Source: Catenisphaera adipataccumulans (GTDB lineage Bacteria; Bacillota_I; Bacilli_A; Erysipelotrichales; Erysipelotrichaceae). Taken from it: a stretch of DNA of 64,000 nt. The notes beneath the pieces were generated by a model. The model worked only from the letters and a program-made list of their open reading frames with translations. It did not search any database and had not been told where the DNA came from. A program made the translations under genes and the position numbers. The stretch spans positions 62,001 to 126,000 of the forward strand of contig NZ_JACHHK010000003.1 in the NCBI RefSeq assembly GCF_014202755.1, read 5' to 3'. Shown in pieces: positions 718 through 53,500 of the stretch (within the stretch, counting starts at the first letter, position 1; every line of letters starts with the position of its first letter).

Positions 718-2574
718 CTATTTTCCTTCCAATTCCTCCATTTTTTCTTCCCACTCCGACATCAGTTTCTGGATCTCATTGTGTTTGTCATCAATATCGG
801 CATCGAGCGTCTCCATCTTTTTAAAGTCTTGATAAAATTCCGGCTCATACCGCAGTTCCCGCAGACTTTCAAGATCTTTCTCGGCTTCCTCCAACATGTT
901 CTCCAGTTTTGCGATCCGGTTGCGCAGCGCTTTTTCATTTTGGAATTTGGCTTTGCCCGTCTGTGGTTTTTCGATTTCTGACGGCTGCAGATCCTCTGTT
1001 GAATGATCCATATAATCTTGATAACCAAGATCAAAGACTTTTGCGCCGCTGCCTAGATCCAACACACGCGTTGCCATCTTCTGTAAAAACATCCGGTCAT
1101 GACTGACAAACAACAAGGTGCCGTCATACGCCTGCAGCGCGTTTTCCAGTGCCTCCTTGCCGGGAATATCCAAGTGATTGGTCGGCTCATCGAGGATCAG
1201 CAGGTTATCATGCCGCAGCATCAAACAGGCCAAGGCCAGCCGTACTTTTTCACCGCCGGACAGATCATTAACTTCTTTGAACACCTCATCCTGCGTAAAT
1301 AAAAATGCAGCCAGCGTATTGCGGATCTCCGTCTGAGTGCTCAGCGGAAAACGGTCCCACAATTCATCCAAAACAGTCTTATCTGAAGACATCTGGGCGC
1401 TTTCCTGATCGAAATAACCGACATCGATCTGATGACCAAATGCATAGTGGCCGCTTAATGCCGGCAGCTGGCCGATCAATGTCTTCAGCAGTGTACTTTT
1501 GCCGGTTCCGTTAGGACCGATCACAGCCAGGCGCTGGCCGGCCATCAATTCCACATTCACTTCCGCCAACGGATGATCATAACCGATCGACAGATGCTCA
1601 ACTTTCAAGACGCGGCGTCCGCCTTTCCGGCCGCTGGAAAACGAAGCATGCATCATCTGTTCATCCGCCCTGACATCCTGGATCCGTTCCATGCGGTCTA
1701 AATATTTCTGCTTACTTTGGGCAAAAGACGCTTTACTGCTTTTGGAGCGGAATTTTGCGATCAGTTCTTCCAAACGTTTGATTTCCTGCTGCTGCCGAAC
1801 ATAAGCCTCATGATTTTTCTGCAGATATTCCTTTTTGGCTTCTGTATAATGCGTATAGCTGCCGACATAACGCATGGTTTTTCCATATTCGATTTCCACG
1901 ATTTCATCTGCAACATGATCGATAAAAGTTCGGTCATGACTGACCAGTACGACCGCAAACGGATAATGACGCAGATATTTCTCCAGCCACTCGACTGCCT
2001 GCAGATCCAGGTGATTGGTCGGTTCATCCAATAAAAGAATATCCGGCTTGCTTAAGAGCAGCTTCACCAATGCGATCCGTGTTTTCTGCCCTGAACTGAA
2101 CTCGCTCAGCTTCTTCTGCAGATCCGCTTCTTCAAATTGAAAATGGAAAAAAACATTGCGGATCTCTACATCATATTGATAGCCGTTCATCGCTTCAAAA
2201 CGCGCCTGCATATCCGCATATCGGCTCAGTATTTTCTCATCTGCCTGTTCCTGCAGCTGCTGTTCCGTTTCGCGCATCGCCTGTTCCAGATGCCGTACTT
2301 CAGCAAAGGCTTTCAGCAATTCCTCATAGACCGTACAGGACTCATCGGGAAACGTGATCTGTGCCAGATAACCAATACGTGTATCACCGGCAATAAAACG
2401 ATCGCCGGCATCCGCCTGTTCCTGTCCGCATAGTATCCGTAACAAGGTCGTCTTGCCGCAGCCATTGCGGCCGATCAGTGCGATCTTTTCCTTATCACGA
2501 ACCCGAAGCGATGCATCCAGCAGCACCTCCTGGGTGCCGTAGGATTTTTTAATGTGATTCAGTTGTGCTTTCAC
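718..2574 (-). CDS. ABC-F family ATPase (duplicated ABC cassette, ribosome-associated type)
   Basis: Soluble protein of 618 residues with two ATP-binding cassettes and no membrane segment, the ABC-F layout; family members act on ribosomes in translation or antibiotic protection. Walker A motifs are GRNGCGKTT and GPNGTGKST. The second signature is canonical (LSGGEK), the first is degenerate (FSSGQK). Both Walker B regions read LLDEPTNHLD or LILDEPTNHLD. A charged linker follows cassette 1 and a ~70-residue coiled coil ends the protein, as in YdiF/Uup-like members. I choose GTG at 2574: GAGGGGG lies 6 nt upstream and the family N-terminus starts there; the longer frame to 2619 lacks these supports. 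It overlaps the upstream gene by 26 nt. The exact subfamily is not resolved. Confidence 0.88.
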   Translation of the reverse strand: MKAQLNHIKKSYGTQEVLLDASLRVRDKEKIALIGRNGCGKTTLLRILCGQEQADAGDRFIAGDTRIGYLAQITFPDESCTVYEELLKAFAEVRHLEQAMRETEQQLQEQADEKILSRYADMQARFEAMNGYQYDVEIRNVFFHFQFEEADLQKKLSEFSSGQKTRIALVKLLLSKPDILLLDEPTNHLDLQAVEWLEKYLRHYPFAVVLVSHDRTFIDHVADEIVEIEYGKTMRYVGSYTHYTEAKKEYLQKNHEAYVRQQQEIKRLEELIAKFRSKSSKASFAQSKQKYLDRMERIQDVRADEQMMHASFSSGRKGGRRVLKVEHLSIGYDHPLAEVNVELMAGQRLAVIGPNGTGKSTLLKTLIGQLPALSGHYAFGHQIDVGYFDQESAQMSSDKTVLDELWDRFPLSTQTEIRNTLAAFLFTQDEVFKEVNDLSGGEKVRLALACLMLRHDNLLILDEPTNHLDIPGKEALENALQAYDGTLLFVSHDRMFLQKMATRVLDLGSGAKVFDLGYQDYMDHSTEDLQPSEIEKPQTGKAKFQNEKALRNRIAKLENMLEEAEKDLESLRELRYEPEFYQDFKKMETLDADIDDKHNEIQKLMSEWEEKMEELEGK

Positions 2575-3877
2575 TGAATTCCCCCTCGATCTCAAAATAA
2601 TCGATAATGCCGTCAGCAATACTTTTTGCCAGTTTCGCTTTATGATTTTTGTAATAGTTCACACTGCCTTCATCATCGACATTCGCATACTGCACATACA
2701 CGCCGTACATACCGAATGCATTCCGATAACGCCGGTTCAGATCCGCATTGTCCATCGTACCGGCATAGGTCACTTTGGCACCGCTTTCCCGCAGCTGCGG
2801 ATAATACTCATATTTTGTATCTTTTCCGGCATCGTTCTGAATCAGATCATCGTAATAAACACCCGCATTCAGGCCGGTATCACTATCATCCGATCCGTAC
2901 AATTCCACATTGTTCTGTTCGCATTCATATGCGATCGTATTGGCCAGATTTCCGGATGTATACGGCGATACGACCAGGATCGGACGATCAATTTCGTCAT
3001 CGCTCATCAAGCCCAGTGACAAATAAACCTTGGCTTCCTGTTCGTAGCCGCGGCCGATCCGGCTCTTCTTGCCGTAATACGACGAATATTCATTCTTTTT
3101 TCGGGAGATCTTGACCCGCAGGCCTTTTTTCTCCAGCTTCTTTTTGATCTTCAGCGCCAGTTCGTAATTATCTTCCTGTGACAGGCCGTTACCTTTATCA
3201 CCTGAATCATTGGTATCGCTTTCTGGATCGTAGACATTGCCGCCCGGATCGATCATGACGTCTATTTTCTCAACGATCGGGATCGTATCCATAACACTGA
3301 TGAAGCAATAGTTTTCCGATAAGTTTACCCCGGCATCGCTGAATAAATCTTTATCGGCCTCTAATTTGATTGTTTTTACTTTTTTATGCCGACGCATCGT
3401 CTGAAAGGATTTCGAATGCACAGAATGATCCATATACACGCGTTTTTTTGTATAATGATCATATACAAAAACTTCATAGAGCCCTTCTGGCAGCTGACCG
3501 AGCTTGATGCCGTCTTCTCCGCCGGAGCCGAACGTATAACTGAGTTCTTCTCCGGTTTCAACATTTTTCAGCAGTACGGTCATGCCATTGGTCGCATCAG
3601 AAGAATTTGCTTTCGAATGATAAAGCTTCAAGGACTCTCCGTAGATCGAATACGTATCGATCTGGTATTCGTTATCATACGAAGTATTTACATTCTGCTG
3701 AATGACATCGTTATCCAGCGTATCGATATACGACTGCGACAGCCGATCGATCTGCGAAGGACGCGTAGCATATAAAAAGATGGCCACGACGGCCAGTGCG
3801 ATCGTTACGATCAATAAAATGACTGTCTTCGGATCTTTGAATACGTAACGAAGCGTACTGTTCTTTTTCTTTCCCAT
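2549..3877 (-). CDS. membrane-anchored amidase_3-fold protein with a degenerate active site
   Basis: 442 residues: a basic cytoplasmic N-terminus, one membrane segment (about 19-39), a β-rich middle domain (about 60-190) and a C-terminal domain (about 205-435) that follows the N-acetylmuramoyl-L-alanine amidase (Amidase_3) order. The strand, 'SRKKNE' and closing 'GIIDYF' landmarks are present, but the catalytic positions are changed. DPGHGG reads DPGGN, the metal-binding Glu before the first helix aligns with Gln in GLSQED, the second His (SIHAN) is SLGLM, and the catalytic Glu near the end aligns with Gln (YVQYAN). Inference: no zinc hydrolase activity, and a role as a wall-binding or regulatory pseudoenzyme on the outer face. 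It has its own promoter right at the ATG; its tail overlaps the ABC-F start. Confidence 0.7.
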   Translation of the reverse strand: MGKKKNSTLRYVFKDPKTVILLIVTIALAVVAIFLYATRPSQIDRLSQSYIDTLDNDVIQQNVNTSYDNEYQIDTYSIYGESLKLYHSKANSSDATNGMTVLLKNVETGEELSYTFGSGGEDGIKLGQLPEGLYEVFVYDHYTKKRVYMDHSVHSKSFQTMRRHKKVKTIKLEADKDLFSDAGVNLSENYCFISVMDTIPIVEKIDVMIDPGGNVYDPESDTNDSGDKGNGLSQEDNYELALKIKKKLEKKGLRVKISRKKNEYSSYYGKKSRIGRGYEQEAKVYLSLGLMSDDEIDRPILVVSPYTSGNLANTIAYECEQNNVELYGSDDSDTGLNAGVYYDDLIQNDAGKDTKYEYYPQLRESGAKVTYAGTMDNADLNRRYRNAFGMYGVYVQYANVDDEGSVNYYKNHKAKLAKSIADGIIDYFEIEGEFSESTTESH

Positions 3878-3884
3878 ACCCTTA

Positions 3885-3913
3885 TTTATACCATAGTTCG
3901 GTGCGGTTGGCTA
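3885..3913 (-). promoter_or_regulatory. promoter placed at the start codon of the amidase-like gene
   Basis: Minus-strand TAGCCA (3908-3913), 17-bp spacer, TATAAA (3885-3890) with TGG just upstream (extended -10). Only 7 nt separate the -10 from the ATG at 3877, so the expected transcript starts at or next to the start codon; no usable SD fits. Confidence 0.5.
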
Positions 3914-11322: not shown

Positions 11323-13002
11323 TTATTCGATTTTACTGCTGATAAAGCCTTTCTGGATCTTCCGAAGCTGATACGGATTGCCGTTTCCGTACCACACCAG
11401 ATACCCCTCATAGCCGGCGCGGTTGATTCCCCTGATCTGCGCCTTGATCTCACTGGTCGAATAATCATACCCACGGATCCAGTTGCGGACCACCGCATCG
11501 GATTCAATCGTATTCATCTGCTGCTTTACCCGTTTATTGAATTTATACAGCGTTTTTTCCGGATGAGAGACTGGATCATCGATATCCATCGCACCGGATG
11601 CAAACAAGTCCGTATACGCCATCGGACAGACTACATCGACCGCATTGGCAATAGCCGGGAAGAACTGACCGATATCCTGATCATCCTGCGCCACCACCGG
11701 CCAGGCCCAGATATCCGCTGCAACATAGACTTTATAGGATTCCAGCTCATGGTGCGCATAAGTAAGAAAGCCCTGGATCGCTGCGACCTTGCTTTCGTTG
11801 TATTTATTCTGCATATCCAGCTCGTCCTGGATCGTTGCTGTTCCATCCGGGAAACGACAGTAATCAAATTGAATTTCATTGAAATTGCATTTGGCTGCTT
11901 CTTTGGCAATGTCGACATTGTACATCCACGCCTTCCGTGAATAAGCGCTTGGCCAGTATTCATCGTTGACTTTGATCAAATCGCCGTCTTTGTCTGTGAT
12001 GGCTTCTGATTTATTCTGCTTGGCAAAAATAGAATCTTTGAACGTGACGATGCGGGCGATCATATAGTAGCCGTCATCCTGGAACTCTTTCATCAATTCT
12101 TTCATTTCTTTTTTCGTTACCACGGTTTCTGTCTGCGCTTTATCCGGATCTTTCAAGTAGTCGTCGACGACATCACTTTCGTAATAGACCGGACCGCCGT
12201 CGCCTTTGATTTCGACCGTGATCGAGTTGATGCTGGTTTTGTCATTCAACGACAGAAAATAATCTTTATGTTTGACTAAATTCTGCAGTGTCGTGTGCAC
12301 TGAATTGACGTCCTCTTTGATTGGATTGCTTTTGTATTCTTTGAGCTTACGTGGTTTATAATCCACCTGTTTAATGTATGCTTTTTTCGAATAGCCGTCA
12401 CCGTACTCCTGATCCCAGTAATCGGAATATTCTACGTTGGCCGCATAATTCTTCATTGCCGCGCTCTTTGACGTCTCCACTTCTTCGCCGTTGAGCCAAT
12501 ATTGTTTACCGCCTTTTTCTACGCGGTACCAGGATATGGCGCCTGTCCGGCGGTCCAGATCTTCGGTCTTGACTTCCGTCACTTTGACCTTTTCACCTTT
12601 CTTCACAACTTTGGCAGAAAGCTTACCGGATTTGGTCGTCTGTAAATTGATCAGACGGCGCGGATAAACATACGATACTTGTACACAATCTTCCAAGGAA
12701 GAGGCTAAATGATCATTATCCACATTGAATTCCATATCCTTGTATTTGACCAGTGATTCGCTTTCACCTTGCTGGCGGAGTTCCACCCTTGTACCGCGCG
12801 TCAGCGTCAGCACTTTGACTTTTGCCTCATCACCGGCAGAATAAGGGATCTTTACTGTTAATGTTTCCGTTGATGATTTGATGTAACGATACGGGTGCAC
12901 GGCACGCCGGATCAACGGAACGGAAATCACCAGCACGACAGCCAGAAGCAGGATGATTTGCCTTCTGGTGAATTGCTTTGCCTTTTTACGTTTACTGCTC
13001 AT
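11323..13002 (-). CDS. COG1306/DUF4015 putative glycoside hydrolase with SH3 domains, membrane anchored
   Basis: 559 residues. A signal anchor (about 14-32) is followed by two bacterial SH3-like repeats (about 45-100 and 110-160, the second with 'ISWYRVEKGGKQYWLNG'). A TIM-barrel-like C-terminal domain follows (about 200-550). The barrel has the DUF4015 landmarks IQFDYCRFP, VAADIWAW, DVVCPMAY and 'GYEGYLVWYGNGNPY'. Family members are predicted glycoside hydrolases acting on extracellular or wall polysaccharide; the substrate is unknown. The promoter abuts the ATG and no SD is visible. It is divergent from an unknown membrane-protein gene. Confidence 0.82.
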   Translation of the reverse strand: MSSKRKKAKQFTRRQIILLLAVVLVISVPLIRRAVHPYRYIKSSTETLTVKIPYSAGDEAKVKVLTLTRGTRVELRQQGESESLVKYKDMEFNVDNDHLASSLEDCVQVSYVYPRRLINLQTTKSGKLSAKVVKKGEKVKVTEVKTEDLDRRTGAISWYRVEKGGKQYWLNGEEVETSKSAAMKNYAANVEYSDYWDQEYGDGYSKKAYIKQVDYKPRKLKEYKSNPIKEDVNSVHTTLQNLVKHKDYFLSLNDKTSINSITVEIKGDGGPVYYESDVVDDYLKDPDKAQTETVVTKKEMKELMKEFQDDGYYMIARIVTFKDSIFAKQNKSEAITDKDGDLIKVNDEYWPSAYSRKAWMYNVDIAKEAAKCNFNEIQFDYCRFPDGTATIQDELDMQNKYNESKVAAIQGFLTYAHHELESYKVYVAADIWAWPVVAQDDQDIGQFFPAIANAVDVVCPMAYTDLFASGAMDIDDPVSHPEKTLYKFNKRVKQQMNTIESDAVVRNWIRGYDYSTSEIKAQIRGINRAGYEGYLVWYGNGNPYQLRKIQKGFISSKIE

Positions 13003-13009
13003 ATTTTAA

Positions 13010-13039
13010 ATTTTACCATTAAGTACAAATTACTGTCAA
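13010..13039 (-). promoter_or_regulatory. promoter at the start codon of the COG1306-type hydrolase
   Basis: Minus-strand TTGACA (13034-13039), 18-bp spacer, TGG-TAAAAT (-10 at 13010-13015). The -10 ends 7 nt before the ATG at 13002; no SD follows, so a leaderless mRNA is expected. Confidence 0.6.
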
Positions 13040-13065
13040 TTTACGCCCTAAAACACGAAACATGC

Positions 13066-13071
13066 TATAAT
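13066..13071 (+). promoter_or_regulatory. extended -10 promoter at the start codon of the unknown membrane protein
   Basis: TGC-TATAAT (hexamer 13066-13071). Only 6 nt (ATTCGC) lie between it and the ATG at 13078, so transcription should start on the A of the start codon. No clear -35. Confidence 0.55.
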
Positions 13072-13077
13072 ATTCGC

Positions 13078-14217
13078 ATGAAAAATAAACAGTCTCAAGA
13101 TTATATTATCTATAAAAAATCCAAGCGCCGGGTCACTTTGCGCCTGATCGCAACATATATATTTCTATGTGCTTATTTTGTCGGCGTCTACTATTTGATG
13201 CATCTCGATTTTTTTACCGTCGAACAAAGTACCTTTGACATCATCTTGATCGGTGGTATGATCGCACAGCTTTGTATTTTCTCGATCTTATTCATGATGC
13301 TTTCAACAGGCAAGAAAGCATACCGGATCTTATACTGGATCACGTTCATCATGGAACTGATCCTGTTCTATTATCCGATCTCAGAACTGATCGACCATAC
13401 GGAGTCTTTGCCCGGTTATCTGCTGATCATCGTATGCATGCTCATCAAGGTCTGGGTGCTTTGGAAATTCGGGGCGTATCTGCAAAAAAATGCATCCGCA
13501 AAGGTCTTCTTTGACCACGTGATCGAAGTCACCAATGACGGCCGGTATGAAGAGCCGCTCTTTGATGAAGATCTGGAAACACCGGAACAAATCGTTCTGG
13601 AACCGGAAGAAGAAGATTTCGACCAGCCAGTCGAAACCGAAACAATCGATGATGAACCGACCCTGACCAATCAGCAGCCGGTCATCGAAAGTGCGCCGGT
13701 GCACACCGAAACGGCGGATCATACGAAACATAAACACATCACAACGGATGATATCGCCTTCATGGAACTGACTAGTGAAAAACAGTATCCGCATCTGGCG
13801 ATCCGTATGGCTTTGATCGTATATATCAGCTTGATGGTCTTTCCGATCTTAACGCAGATCTTTTCGAGCTTCTTCTACAGTAACGACAATACAACGGTCT
13901 TTGCTTCACACGATATGTTCATGGCTTGTGTCATCACTGCGATGGTCTGGACCATTCCGATCCTATATTTGTATTACAACCATCCTGCCTCCAAAAAGAT
14001 CATCATGGTCTGTTTTGGAATTGAAATTGTCCGGGTGCTGATTTATCTGCCGACTTTCATTGGTTATATGACCAATACAGAAGTGACCTACCCGCTGCGG
14101 GTATTCATCTTTTATATCCTATTGGAACTGGTCCGTTATGTACTGTTGTTTCTCGCGGCACGGCCGGTGTTCCGGCTTCCTATACCAGAAAAAACAGATG
14201 ACGAAGAGGACGATTAG
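13078..14217 (+). CDS. polytopic membrane protein of unknown function
   Basis: 379 residues. Four N-terminal membrane helices (about 20-125) and four C-terminal ones (about 235-365) flank a ~90-residue, very acidic cytoplasmic loop (with 'EPEEEDFDQPVETE'). The C-terminus is also acidic. I recognise no family. The ATG at 13078 is chosen because the longer frame from 12895 reads through the divergent promoter and the hydrolase gene. One of few plus-strand genes; it is divergent from the hydrolase and convergent with the sensor kinase, whose stop overlaps its own. Confidence 0.8.
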   Translation: MKNKQSQDYIIYKKSKRRVTLRLIATYIFLCAYFVGVYYLMHLDFFTVEQSTFDIILIGGMIAQLCIFSILFMMLSTGKKAYRILYWITFIMELILFYYPISELIDHTESLPGYLLIIVCMLIKVWVLWKFGAYLQKNASAKVFFDHVIEVTNDGRYEEPLFDEDLETPEQIVLEPEEEDFDQPVETETIDDEPTLTNQQPVIESAPVHTETADHTKHKHITTDDIAFMELTSEKQYPHLAIRMALIVYISLMVFPILTQIFSSFFYSNDNTTVFASHDMFMACVITAMVWTIPILYLYYNHPASKKIIMVCFGIEIVRVLIYLPTFIGYMTNTEVTYPLRVFIFYILLELVRYVLLFLAARPVFRLPIPEKTDDEEDD

Positions 14218-21254: not shown

Positions 21255-22729
21255 CATGCTTCCTTTCTGCGCATCAGCCACTGATGCACTTGTTTTTGAA
21301 ATGTTAAGACCAGCGGTTCTTTCAGCAGGAGCAGCACCGCAAGATAGACAACGAAAAATAAAATGCAGGAAATCGCCAGGATCAAGAAACTGTTCCAGCG
21401 CAATGAGGAAACCAGTTCCAGATGCCGGCAGAAGACGGAAAGGATTGCTGCGGCTGCATTGGCCGTCAACAGCTTGCCGTAAGGGATCCGTTTCAGCAGT
21501 TTGCGGATCATCGGTTTCGTATAATGATATTGTACCCCAAGCACGACCGCTTCGGCTGCTAATGTACCAATGGCAGCGCCGGCAGAGGCCAAATGCGGGA
21601 TCAACAGCAGATTGATCACAAAATCGACGGCTGCGCCGGCAATTTCGGAATACAGCACATACATTTCATTGCCGGTCGGCACCAGGATCTGCATCCCGAT
21701 GATATTGGTCAGACCAATAAAAATCAACGTCGGCATCACGATCTGCATCGGCAGGATGGACCCGGTAAATTCTGCACTGGAAATAAAATAAATGCCCTGC
21801 GAAGCAAAAAGGACTGTATAAACGGCCAGCGGCACAGCGACCAGCCAGACAAAATGCAGAGCATCCTGCGCGATCGCACGAAACCGTTTCATGTCGCCCT
21901 GCCCAATGTAATAAGAAGCCCGCGGCAGCATCACCGTGCCCAATGAAGTTACAAGGCTGACCAGGATGTTCTTGATCTTGACAGCCATCTGATAATAACC
22001 AACATCGACATTGGTTTTCATGAAACCAAGCATGACAATATCCAGATTCGTATAGATGGTCGTGGCACAGGACATCGCAAAAAAGATGCCCACATGACGC
22101 AGATGTTTACGAAAATGATAATGACCGACCGGTTTTAAGTCGATGAATTTATGCGCATAAAAAAAGTTAGCCAGCGACGAGCCGTAGGAAGCAAAAATCG
22201 AAAGACCGCCGTAAATGATATAATCACTTTTCGCATGCACCAGCAGAAGCATGGCAACGACAGAAATCGTTTTACAAACCACGGACCACACCGTGATGAA
22301 CGTGTATTCTTCCAATCCCTGATACATCCAGTTCATGCCGATGCAGTTGAGCCAGACCATACTGCCGACAACGATAAACAGTGTTTTCTCATCTTTCATC
22401 TGCGGAACAGTAAACAGCAGGATGAAGAACACAATGTAGGAAAGGATCATCATCACGATGTTGATGATCAATAACTCCTGCACAGTCTTGGTCAAGGCTT
22501 TTTTATCATCACGAGCCAGCGCACAGGCACGAATACCATAGGTCGGGATACCCAGCTGCGCAAACATCGTAAAATAGGTCGCAATGCTCGTGGCAAATGA
22601 AACGCTGCCCATCCCGGACGGGGAAAGGATCGGTGAGACATACGGATACGTGATCAACGGAAATATGAACGCCGACATCGTCAGCAGCGTATTCATGAGA
22701 AAGTTTTTCTTTACTGATTTTTGTTCCAT
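21254..22729 (-). CDS. Wzx-like lipid-linked oligosaccharide flippase
   Basis: About 491 residues and roughly 14 membrane helices, starting 'MEQKSVKKNFLMNTLLTMSAF' at 22729, the typical start of polysaccharide flippases of the MATE/MOP superfamily; 'GMGSVSFATSIATYFTMFA' lies in the first loop-helix. It would turn undecaprenyl-PP-oligosaccharide to the outer face for polymerisation. The longer frame to 22771 has no support and would cover the promoter. First gene of its transcript; the predicted 5' leader is under 10 nt and has no clear SD. Confidence 0.88.
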   Translation of the reverse strand: MEQKSVKKNFLMNTLLTMSAFIFPLITYPYVSPILSPSGMGSVSFATSIATYFTMFAQLGIPTYGIRACALARDDKKALTKTVQELLIINIVMMILSYIVFFILLFTVPQMKDEKTLFIVVGSMVWLNCIGMNWMYQGLEEYTFITVWSVVCKTISVVAMLLLVHAKSDYIIYGGLSIFASYGSSLANFFYAHKFIDLKPVGHYHFRKHLRHVGIFFAMSCATTIYTNLDIVMLGFMKTNVDVGYYQMAVKIKNILVSLVTSLGTVMLPRASYYIGQGDMKRFRAIAQDALHFVWLVAVPLAVYTVLFASQGIYFISSAEFTGSILPMQIVMPTLIFIGLTNIIGMQILVPTGNEMYVLYSEIAGAAVDFVINLLLIPHLASAGAAIGTLAAEAVVLGVQYHYTKPMIRKLLKRIPYGKLLTANAAAAILSVFCRHLELVSSLRWNSFLILAISCILFFVVYLAVLLLLKEPLVLTFQKQVHQWLMRRKEA

Positions 22730-22742
22730 AATAACTATTCTA

Positions 22743-22771
22743 TTTTTATGCGAATCTGCGCCATTTGTCAA
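22743..22771 (-). promoter_or_regulatory. promoter of the flippase operon
   Basis: Minus-strand TTGACA (22766-22771), 17-bp spacer, TAAAAA (22743-22748). TAGAAT at 22737-22742 is an alternative -10. Either gives a leader of about 0-7 nt. The -35 directly follows the T run of the preceding terminator. Confidence 0.55.
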
Positions 22772-51773: not shown

Positions 51774-53465
51774 CTAAAATGGTGCATATCCGCTGTCATT
51801 CGTATACGAATCTGAACCATCGTATGTACTATTATAATCCGTCGAGTAATCACCATATGTCGTCGTGTCCTGACTGTATCCGTCATAAGTCGAATAGCTG
51901 TCCGTTGATTCATCGCTGGATCCATCATCTGTACCCAGTTCACCGGCCTGATCGCTGACAGACGATGCTTTCTTGCCGTTGCTGATCGCATTGATCTTCT
52001 GTTTTGCGGTCTTGACCGAACCGTTGTCCACTAACATCACAGAAGCATAATCCGACAATGTTGCACAATACCGTGTATCAGTCTCACCGGTCAGCGCATA
52101 GCTTTCAAACGTCCAGCTTGGATCATCAGAAAGCTGATACCGGATTAATGATGTGATATCCGAAGAAGACATGTTGGTTTCAAAGGCACCGCTGAGCGCA
52201 TCGGCAAACTTCGCATAGTTTTTGATCATCGAAGCCGAAGTGATCTTCTTGATGATCGCACGGAGCACCTGCTGCTGATTCTTTACTCGCTGGGTATCGC
52301 CGTCGGTATAAGCATGACGTTCCCGTGCATAGGCCAGGGCCCGCTCGCCGTTCAGATGGTTCCATCCTTCATGGACCCCTTTCAGCGTACTGTTGGCATA
52401 GAATGTATCAACAGCCATGCCTTTTTCGACATAAATATTGATGCCGCCCAACGCATCGACTAGATTGACTAAACTGGAGAAATTGACACGTGCGTAGTAA
52501 TTGATCTCAATTCCCAACAAATCTTCAATGGTTTGTTCCGTTGTATCGACGCCATATAAACCCGTGTGGGTCAGTTTATCCCGTTCCCCGTCCGGACAGG
52601 AACTTTTTGCATCCGATGCACAGGCAACGCTGACATAGTAATCACGCGGGATGCTGGTCATCAGCACACGGTGTGTCTTTGGATTGACCGTCACCAACAT
52701 ATTCGAATCAGAGCGGGAAACATCTTCCAGGCCGCCGTAGGAATCGTTGCCGGAAATCAAAACCGTAAAGGTTTCGGAGGTCACATCCACCGCGTCATCT
52801 GAAGTCTGGACATTGCTTCGTTTTGTATAATATTTTGTCTTATGGATGACTTGGGTTTCCGTATTAAAATTTGTATACTCTTCCTGGTCGTGCACTTCAC
52901 CGCGCATCGACTCATTTAAAATGATCGCATCGACTTCCTCATTGTACAGCGCATCGACCATATCGATCAGTGTGCTGTAGGAAACCGTTTCAATCGAAAT
53001 TGAAGATTCGATATCGTCCAGTGCTTTCTGGGTACCGGTCTTATCAACTTTTTTACAGATTCCCACCGTCTTGCCGTCCAGTTTTTTCAGCGACGTCACC
53101 GATGAATCCTTCAGCGTGACGACCGACACTGTGTTGGTCATCGTACTGGTCAGACTGGTCACATCGCCAATAACTTCACCGGTCTTGGAAATATAATAGT
53201 TGCCGACGCCGTATCCGATCGTCAGCACAATGACTAAAAATCCGCTCAAGATCCGGGCAATGGTCCGTTTTGCCACAAAGTTATACAACAGAAAAACCAG
53301 CAGGGTCACGATGGCAATGATCGCAAACACCGGCAGAGCCAGTTTCAGCGGCAGGATCTCCAGCCGGACGATCTGAACAATTAAAATGATTGCCAATACC
53401 ACGGAAATCCATGATAATGCGGCAATCAAAGGGATTCTGCGTTTTTTTGTTCCATTCACATTCAT
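51774..53465 (-). CDS. LytR-CpsA-Psr (LCP) family glycopolymer ligase, copy 2
   Basis: 563 residues with the same plan as copy 1: three membrane helices (about 13-92), solute-binding-like module (GKTVGICKK...VDAIILNESM), LCP domain with SRSDSNMLVTVNP, MTSIPRDYYVSV, DKLTHTG and NGERALAYARERH, and an external tail of Ser/Thr/Tyr/Asp/Gly repeats (about 500-563). Monocistronic between ftsZ and the exporter operon. The -10 element ends 6 nt before the ATG; no SD is seen, so the mRNA is probably leaderless. Confidence 0.93.
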   Translation of the reverse strand: MNVNGTKKRRIPLIAALSWISVVLAIILIVQIVRLEILPLKLALPVFAIIAIVTLLVFLLYNFVAKRTIARILSGFLVIVLTIGYGVGNYYISKTGEVIGDVTSLTSTMTNTVSVVTLKDSSVTSLKKLDGKTVGICKKVDKTGTQKALDDIESSISIETVSYSTLIDMVDALYNEEVDAIILNESMRGEVHDQEEYTNFNTETQVIHKTKYYTKRSNVQTSDDAVDVTSETFTVLISGNDSYGGLEDVSRSDSNMLVTVNPKTHRVLMTSIPRDYYVSVACASDAKSSCPDGERDKLTHTGLYGVDTTEQTIEDLLGIEINYYARVNFSSLVNLVDALGGINIYVEKGMAVDTFYANSTLKGVHEGWNHLNGERALAYARERHAYTDGDTQRVKNQQQVLRAIIKKITSASMIKNYAKFADALSGAFETNMSSSDITSLIRYQLSDDPSWTFESYALTGETDTRYCATLSDYASVMLVDNGSVKTAKQKINAISNGKKASSVSDQAGELGTDDGSSDESTDSYSTYDGYSQDTTTYGDYSTDYNSTYDGSDSYTNDSGYAPF

Positions 53466-53471
53466 AGAAAT

Positions 53472-53500
53472 ATTTAAGCATCAAAAAGAGTCCTTGTCAA
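53472..53500 (-). promoter_or_regulatory. promoter at the start codon of LCP-2
   Basis: Minus-strand TTGACA (53495-53500), 17-bp spacer, TGC-TTAAAT (-10 at 53472-53477). Six bases (ATTTCT) separate the -10 from the ATG at 53465. Confidence 0.6.

Follow-up and report, generated by a model that had tools for sequence, protein, structure and literature searches.

A genome-wide class of very probably leaderless genes, conserved between genera, in Catenisphaera adipataccumulans (Erysipelotrichaceae)

The closest described counterparts of the genes reported here are the leaderless mRNAs of streptococci, which stand at 8.6% in S. pyogenes and 8–9% in S. agalactiae (PMC6431027, PMC4448216). RNA-seq showed that 81% of the leaderless genes of S. 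pyogenes are common to S. agalactiae, where all leaderless mRNAs use AUG and most start with A (PMC6431027, PMC4448216). In enterococci, fewer than 1% are leaderless, without functional enrichment. A related class of TA-led genes has been predicted in 56 of 209 Firmicutes genomes, with a mean of 4.2%, and is concentrated in Lactobacillales and Mycoplasma, with TG-extended -10 elements in Lactococcus (Zheng et al, 2011; PMC3160421). A preliminary description of the present locus held leaderless mRNAs to be unusual as a group in Bacillota, which is too strong in view of the streptococcal and Firmicutes figures. Outside Bacillota, the -10 element adjoins the ORF and transcription starts at the start codon in Mycobacterium tuberculosis and Deinococcus-Thermus (PMC3898074, PMC12340547), as would be the case here, but the leaderless share is far larger in those bacteria (39% on average in Deinococcus-Thermus, PMC3160421). 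A literature search that had most subscription journals outside it found no report of leaderless genes for Erysipelotrichaceae. The class to which this family belongs is thought to lie near the origin of the mycoplasmas.

The genes analyzed here very probably belong to a genome-wide class of leaderless sigma-A genes that makes up about 10% of promoter-proximal genes, is inherited across genera gene by gene and is tied to compact, often divergent intergenic regions rather than to envelope proteins. This class resembles its streptococcal counterpart in its share of transcription units, in its nearly exclusive use of ATG, in the transcription start expected at the A and in the SD-led state of the other genes; it differs in belonging to another family and in resting on sequence, whereas the streptococcal starts were mapped by RNA-seq. 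As in the TA-led genes of PMC3160421, a TATAAT-type signal lies about 12 bp from the start and is often preceded by TG. Since the phenomenon itself is known in Bacillota at 4–9%, with TG-extended -10 elements, what is new is the lineage, the patchy distribution and one relative in which about 22% of genes are leaderless. Erysipelotrichaceae are one more Bacillota family with conserved leaderless genes, a trait patchily distributed among its members. Gene finders and annotation that relies on ribosome-binding sites may misplace starts in this family.

The window, a stretch of 64,000 nucleotides (C3:62001-126000 of the host genome, G000), comes from the assembly, 2.0 Mb in 14 contigs, of a gut-type bacterium. 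In five of its 58 genes, a -10 element lies 6–7 nt from the ATG (Table 1), in each case where the preliminary description had placed it. We fitted an unsupervised EM model with three upstream classes (SD, -10-adjacent, neither), in which starts were free to move among candidates. Although it was not given these genes, the model picked exactly the same five in the window with a posterior above 0.8 for the -10-adjacent class: 0.999 for the membrane protein gene, 0.965 for the hydrolase gene, 0.95 for LCP-2, 0.92 for the amidase-like gene and 0.84 for the flippase gene. All five start with ATG and lack a usable SD, as originally noted (SD posterior 0.00–0.14), and 50 of the 58 window genes fall in the SD class. 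The -10 element is TG-extended in all but the flippase gene, and LCP-2 and the hydrolase gene also have perfect TTGACA hexamers at spacings of 17 and 18 bp.

Table 1. Promoter elements and genes considered in the window
Feature	Position	Strand	Detail
Amidase-like gene	2549-3877	-	ATG at 3877
-10 element TATAAA, TGG-extended	3885..3890	-	7 nt to ATG at 3877
DUF4015/COG1306-type hydrolase gene	11323-13002	-	ATG at 13002
-10 element TAAAAT, TGG-extended	13010..13015	-	7 nt to ATG at 13002
-35 element TTGACA	13034..13039	-	18 bp from hydrolase gene -10
-10 element TATAAT	13066..13071	+	TG at 13063-13064 (extended, TGC); 6 nt to ATG at 13078
Membrane protein gene	13078-14217	+	ATG at 13078
TAGAAT, doubtful -10 of flippase gene	22737..22742	-	7 nt to ATG at 22729; no TG
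Rival flippase -10 TAAAAA	22743..22748	-	17 bp from TTGACA at 22766-22771; leader of ~6 nt expected
LytR-CpsA-Psr gene (LCP-2)	51774-53465	-	ATG at 53465
-10 element TTAAAT, TGC-extended	53472..53477	-	6 nt to ATG at 53465
-35 element TTGACA	53495..53500	-	17 bp from LCP-2 -10

The leaderless reading is thus well supported in four of the genes. Support is weak for the flippase gene, an ambiguous and doubtful case: the best -35 matches for its TAGAAT reach only 3/6, the TTGACA in the region pairs with another -10, from which a short leader would be expected, and the orthologue in G001, the nearest sampled genus, is preceded by an SD-like GGAG.

The same signal recurs throughout the genome. We analyzed 1.11 Mb as stretches, in which 1022 genes were called by dicodon statistics with a home-made gene caller. 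The EM model assigned 57 of them to the -10-adjacent, SD-less class (5.6% of all genes and 9.8% of promoter-proximal genes, possibly with a few false members, about six judging by shuffles). The learned motif is TATAAT, situated at 6 nt in 68% and at 7 nt in 14%, and the start codon is ATG in 55 of the 57. TG extension is found in 32 of these 57 genes vs 25 of 109 exact TATAAT matches in leadered upstream regions, a set that includes non-promoters (p = 3e-5). In a blind test, in which starts were picked from coding potential alone with the upstream region ignored, 31 of 638 genes had a strict -10 hexamer at exactly 6 nt, compared with 0, 6 and 2 at 5, 7 and 8 nt, and with a mean of 3.45 (maximum 9) in shuffles. 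The dinucleotide-shuffle control of the EM calls was restricted to SD-less genes (an all-gene shuffle is misleading because it destroys SDs too); 62 of 112 such genes were called leaderless, vs 6.3 (maximum 14) after shuffling. The five window genes compare with about three expected from the genome average, so that the window, being close to that average, is not enriched for the class. Thus, the original observation is confirmed and extends genome-wide.

Membership in this class is conserved between genera. Among 124 reciprocal best pairs between this genome and G001, six are leaderless on both sides, another three in this genome alone and one in G001 alone. The leaderless state is shared by 6 of 8 testable genes (Fisher p = 9e-6 among promoter-proximal pairs), a strong conservation between species like that of the 81% in streptococci. 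Four of the five window genes, the flippase gene being the exception, have orthologues with this arrangement in other genera. The membrane protein gene retains the 6-nt arrangement in G001, G003, G021 and G027, with 9 nt in G028. For LCP-2, TTGACA-17-(-10)-6-ATG recurs in G021 and G028, and several other homologues are leadered, with that of Erysipelotrichaceae bacterium OPF54 also looking so. Hydrolase orthologues have TAGAAT-6-ATG in G002 and a -10 at 8–9 nt in G014 and G017, and the one in G001 is SD-led. Amidase orthologues have a -10 at 6–8 nt in G001, G003, G012 and G020 but a clear SD in most other genera, which indicates that the initiation mode has switched within one family. As a query against the named genomes, the hydrolase gave no match. 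The membrane protein encoded at 13078-14217 has about seven hydrophobic segments, matched no Pfam family and is present in just 8 of the 60 surveyed genomes, its own included.

The arrangement suggests how these genes may be expressed. The housekeeping RNA polymerase would recognize the -10 element, often TG-extended and sometimes accompanied by a TTGACA -35. With the last base of the -10 at 6–7 nt before the ATG, the promoter consensus would have transcription begin at the A of the ATG or no more than 1–2 nt from it. A start at the ATG leaves no room in the mRNA for a Shine-Dalgarno sequence. The ribosome would then begin translation at the 5'-terminal AUG, using initiator tRNA and the 70S/IF2 route described in work on other bacteria that PMC6431027 and PMC10783764 cite. 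Alternatively, the polymerase may start 1–3 nt or more before the A, giving short leaders of 1–8 nt. The 7-nt spacing in three of the five genes and the 8–9 nt in some orthologues (the G020 amidase gene and those of G014, G017 and G028) are compatible with such leaders, but at the genome-wide mode of 6 nt, found in most of the class, the A falls where +1 is usually located, and we regard short leaders as the general rule as unlikely, if worth keeping in mind.

The preliminary description also proposed that a shared translation mode serves envelope proteins, since all five products begin with a membrane segment. All five do pass a simple hydropathy test (a 19-residue mean reaching 1.4 or more somewhere in the first 60 residues), vs 4 of 18 other promoter-proximal genes in the window (p = 0.004, a post hoc comparison). 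Outside the window, such segments occur in 13 of 52 leaderless and 109 of 508 other promoter-proximal genes of this genome (25% vs 21%, OR 1.2, p = 0.6). This lack of enrichment is essentially the outcome that the preliminary description had named as refuting its proposal, and we rejected an envelope-protein group for this genome. Pooling this genome with G001 and G002, window excluded, gives a slight excess (32% vs 22%, OR 1.67, p = 0.03), which is far from a defining feature of the class. Its members include transporters, but also DeoR, GntR, TetR and S24 regulators, SpoU and RsmF methyltransferases, a CCA-adding-type enzyme, a DinB-type polymerase, PfkB kinases, radical SAM enzymes and, judged by their N-termini, GNAT-like proteins. 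A particular use of leaderless translation for envelope or membrane proteins is therefore very improbable and close to refuted. The five membrane proteins of the window most likely represent a small sample from a region rich in envelope genes, a striking local pattern that fades once the whole genome is counted. Taken as a whole, the original interpretation is partly supported but mostly wrong.

A reading in which the -10-like elements reflect A+T-rich sequence that matches by chance, with other promoters upstream and weak or non-canonical ribosome binding, is very improbable: chance alone would indeed yield about 3.5 strict matches at each spacing, and the flippase gene, with its better TTGACA/-10 pair one register upstream, fits this reading best, but the nine-fold excess at exactly 6 nt, the conservation in orthologues and the coincident lack of SDs speak against it.

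What the leaderless genes have in common is a short, often divergent, intergenic space and not an envelope function. In divergent gaps shorter than 120 bp, 23 of 88 ends are leaderless, vs 5 of 156 in gaps of at least 120 bp (p = 1.5e-7), although this association is partly mechanical, because genes that lack a leader can fit into narrower gaps. Divergent pairs that are leaderless on both sides, like the hydrolase and membrane protein genes, number 6 vs 1.6 expected (Poisson p = 0.006). Examples in this genome are C1:329491/329559, C2:125031/125101, C3:222674/222728 and the window pair 13002/13078, with about 50–110 bp of intergenic space; G002 has several divergent leaderless pairs with gaps of 46–69 bp.

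Within the family, the trait varies considerably. The 16S gene was not found in this assembly; among the named genomes, the best FtsZ match is that of Erysipelotrichaceae bacterium OPF54 (82% identity, the next being 57%). The blind test gave a peak at 6 nt in G001 (20 genes) and in G002 (13 of 60), and none in G006, of the same family, or G037, of the same order; the peak thus does not arise from the method as such. The leaderless share of promoter-proximal genes is about 10% here and 16% in G001, and reaches as much as 40% in G002 (25 of 62). In G002 (GC 29%), a sample of 132 kb holds 112 called genes, of which 25 were classed as leaderless (about 22%), more than the 16.6% listed as the Firmicutes maximum in PMC3160421. 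G002, G030 and G032 were sampled at 120–140 kb each, and the models for G030 and G032 are weak. Loss of a ribosomal protein as the cause was rejected, the status of S1 and bS21 being the same with or without the leaderless peak: in none of seven genomes did a full-length S1 model score above its cut-off, and all seven have bS21.

For a wider survey of 247 genomes, raw counts of TATAAT-N6-ATG were too noisy, as reading-frame effects produce peaks at 4 and 10 nt as well, and we therefore used a spacing of 9 nt, which lies in the same frame, as control. The 6-nt to 9-nt ratio of TATAAT occurrences before ATG is 4.2 in this genome and 1.58 in the other family members; it is 1.16 for a sister family and 1.14 for a set picked by hand from the remaining families, which shows a trait concentrated in this family yet patchy. 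One reading, for which we see the case as evenly balanced, is that one low-GC Bacillota family has seen strong and repeated expansions of leaderless expression, with orthologues such as the amidase switching between the SD-led and leaderless states and divergent leaderless pairs packed into 40–75 bp. If so, the family would offer a tractable system for studying how genes change their mode of translation initiation.

Two genomes from other families of the class also have an excess at 6 nt, with 70 TATAAT-N6-ATG vs 33 TATAAT-N9-ATG in G107 (family f13) and 137 vs 90 in G129 (family f21); these counts suggest that they may represent further lineages with leaderless genes. Finally, one leaderless gene of the present genome (L055:9799-12291, corresponding to C3:289799-292291) encodes a protein of 830 aa that combines an EF-G/TetM-like GTPase (GTP_EFTU and EFG domains) with a C-terminal YacP-like NYN nuclease domain, a fusion that may possibly act as a ribosome-targeting GTPase-nuclease.
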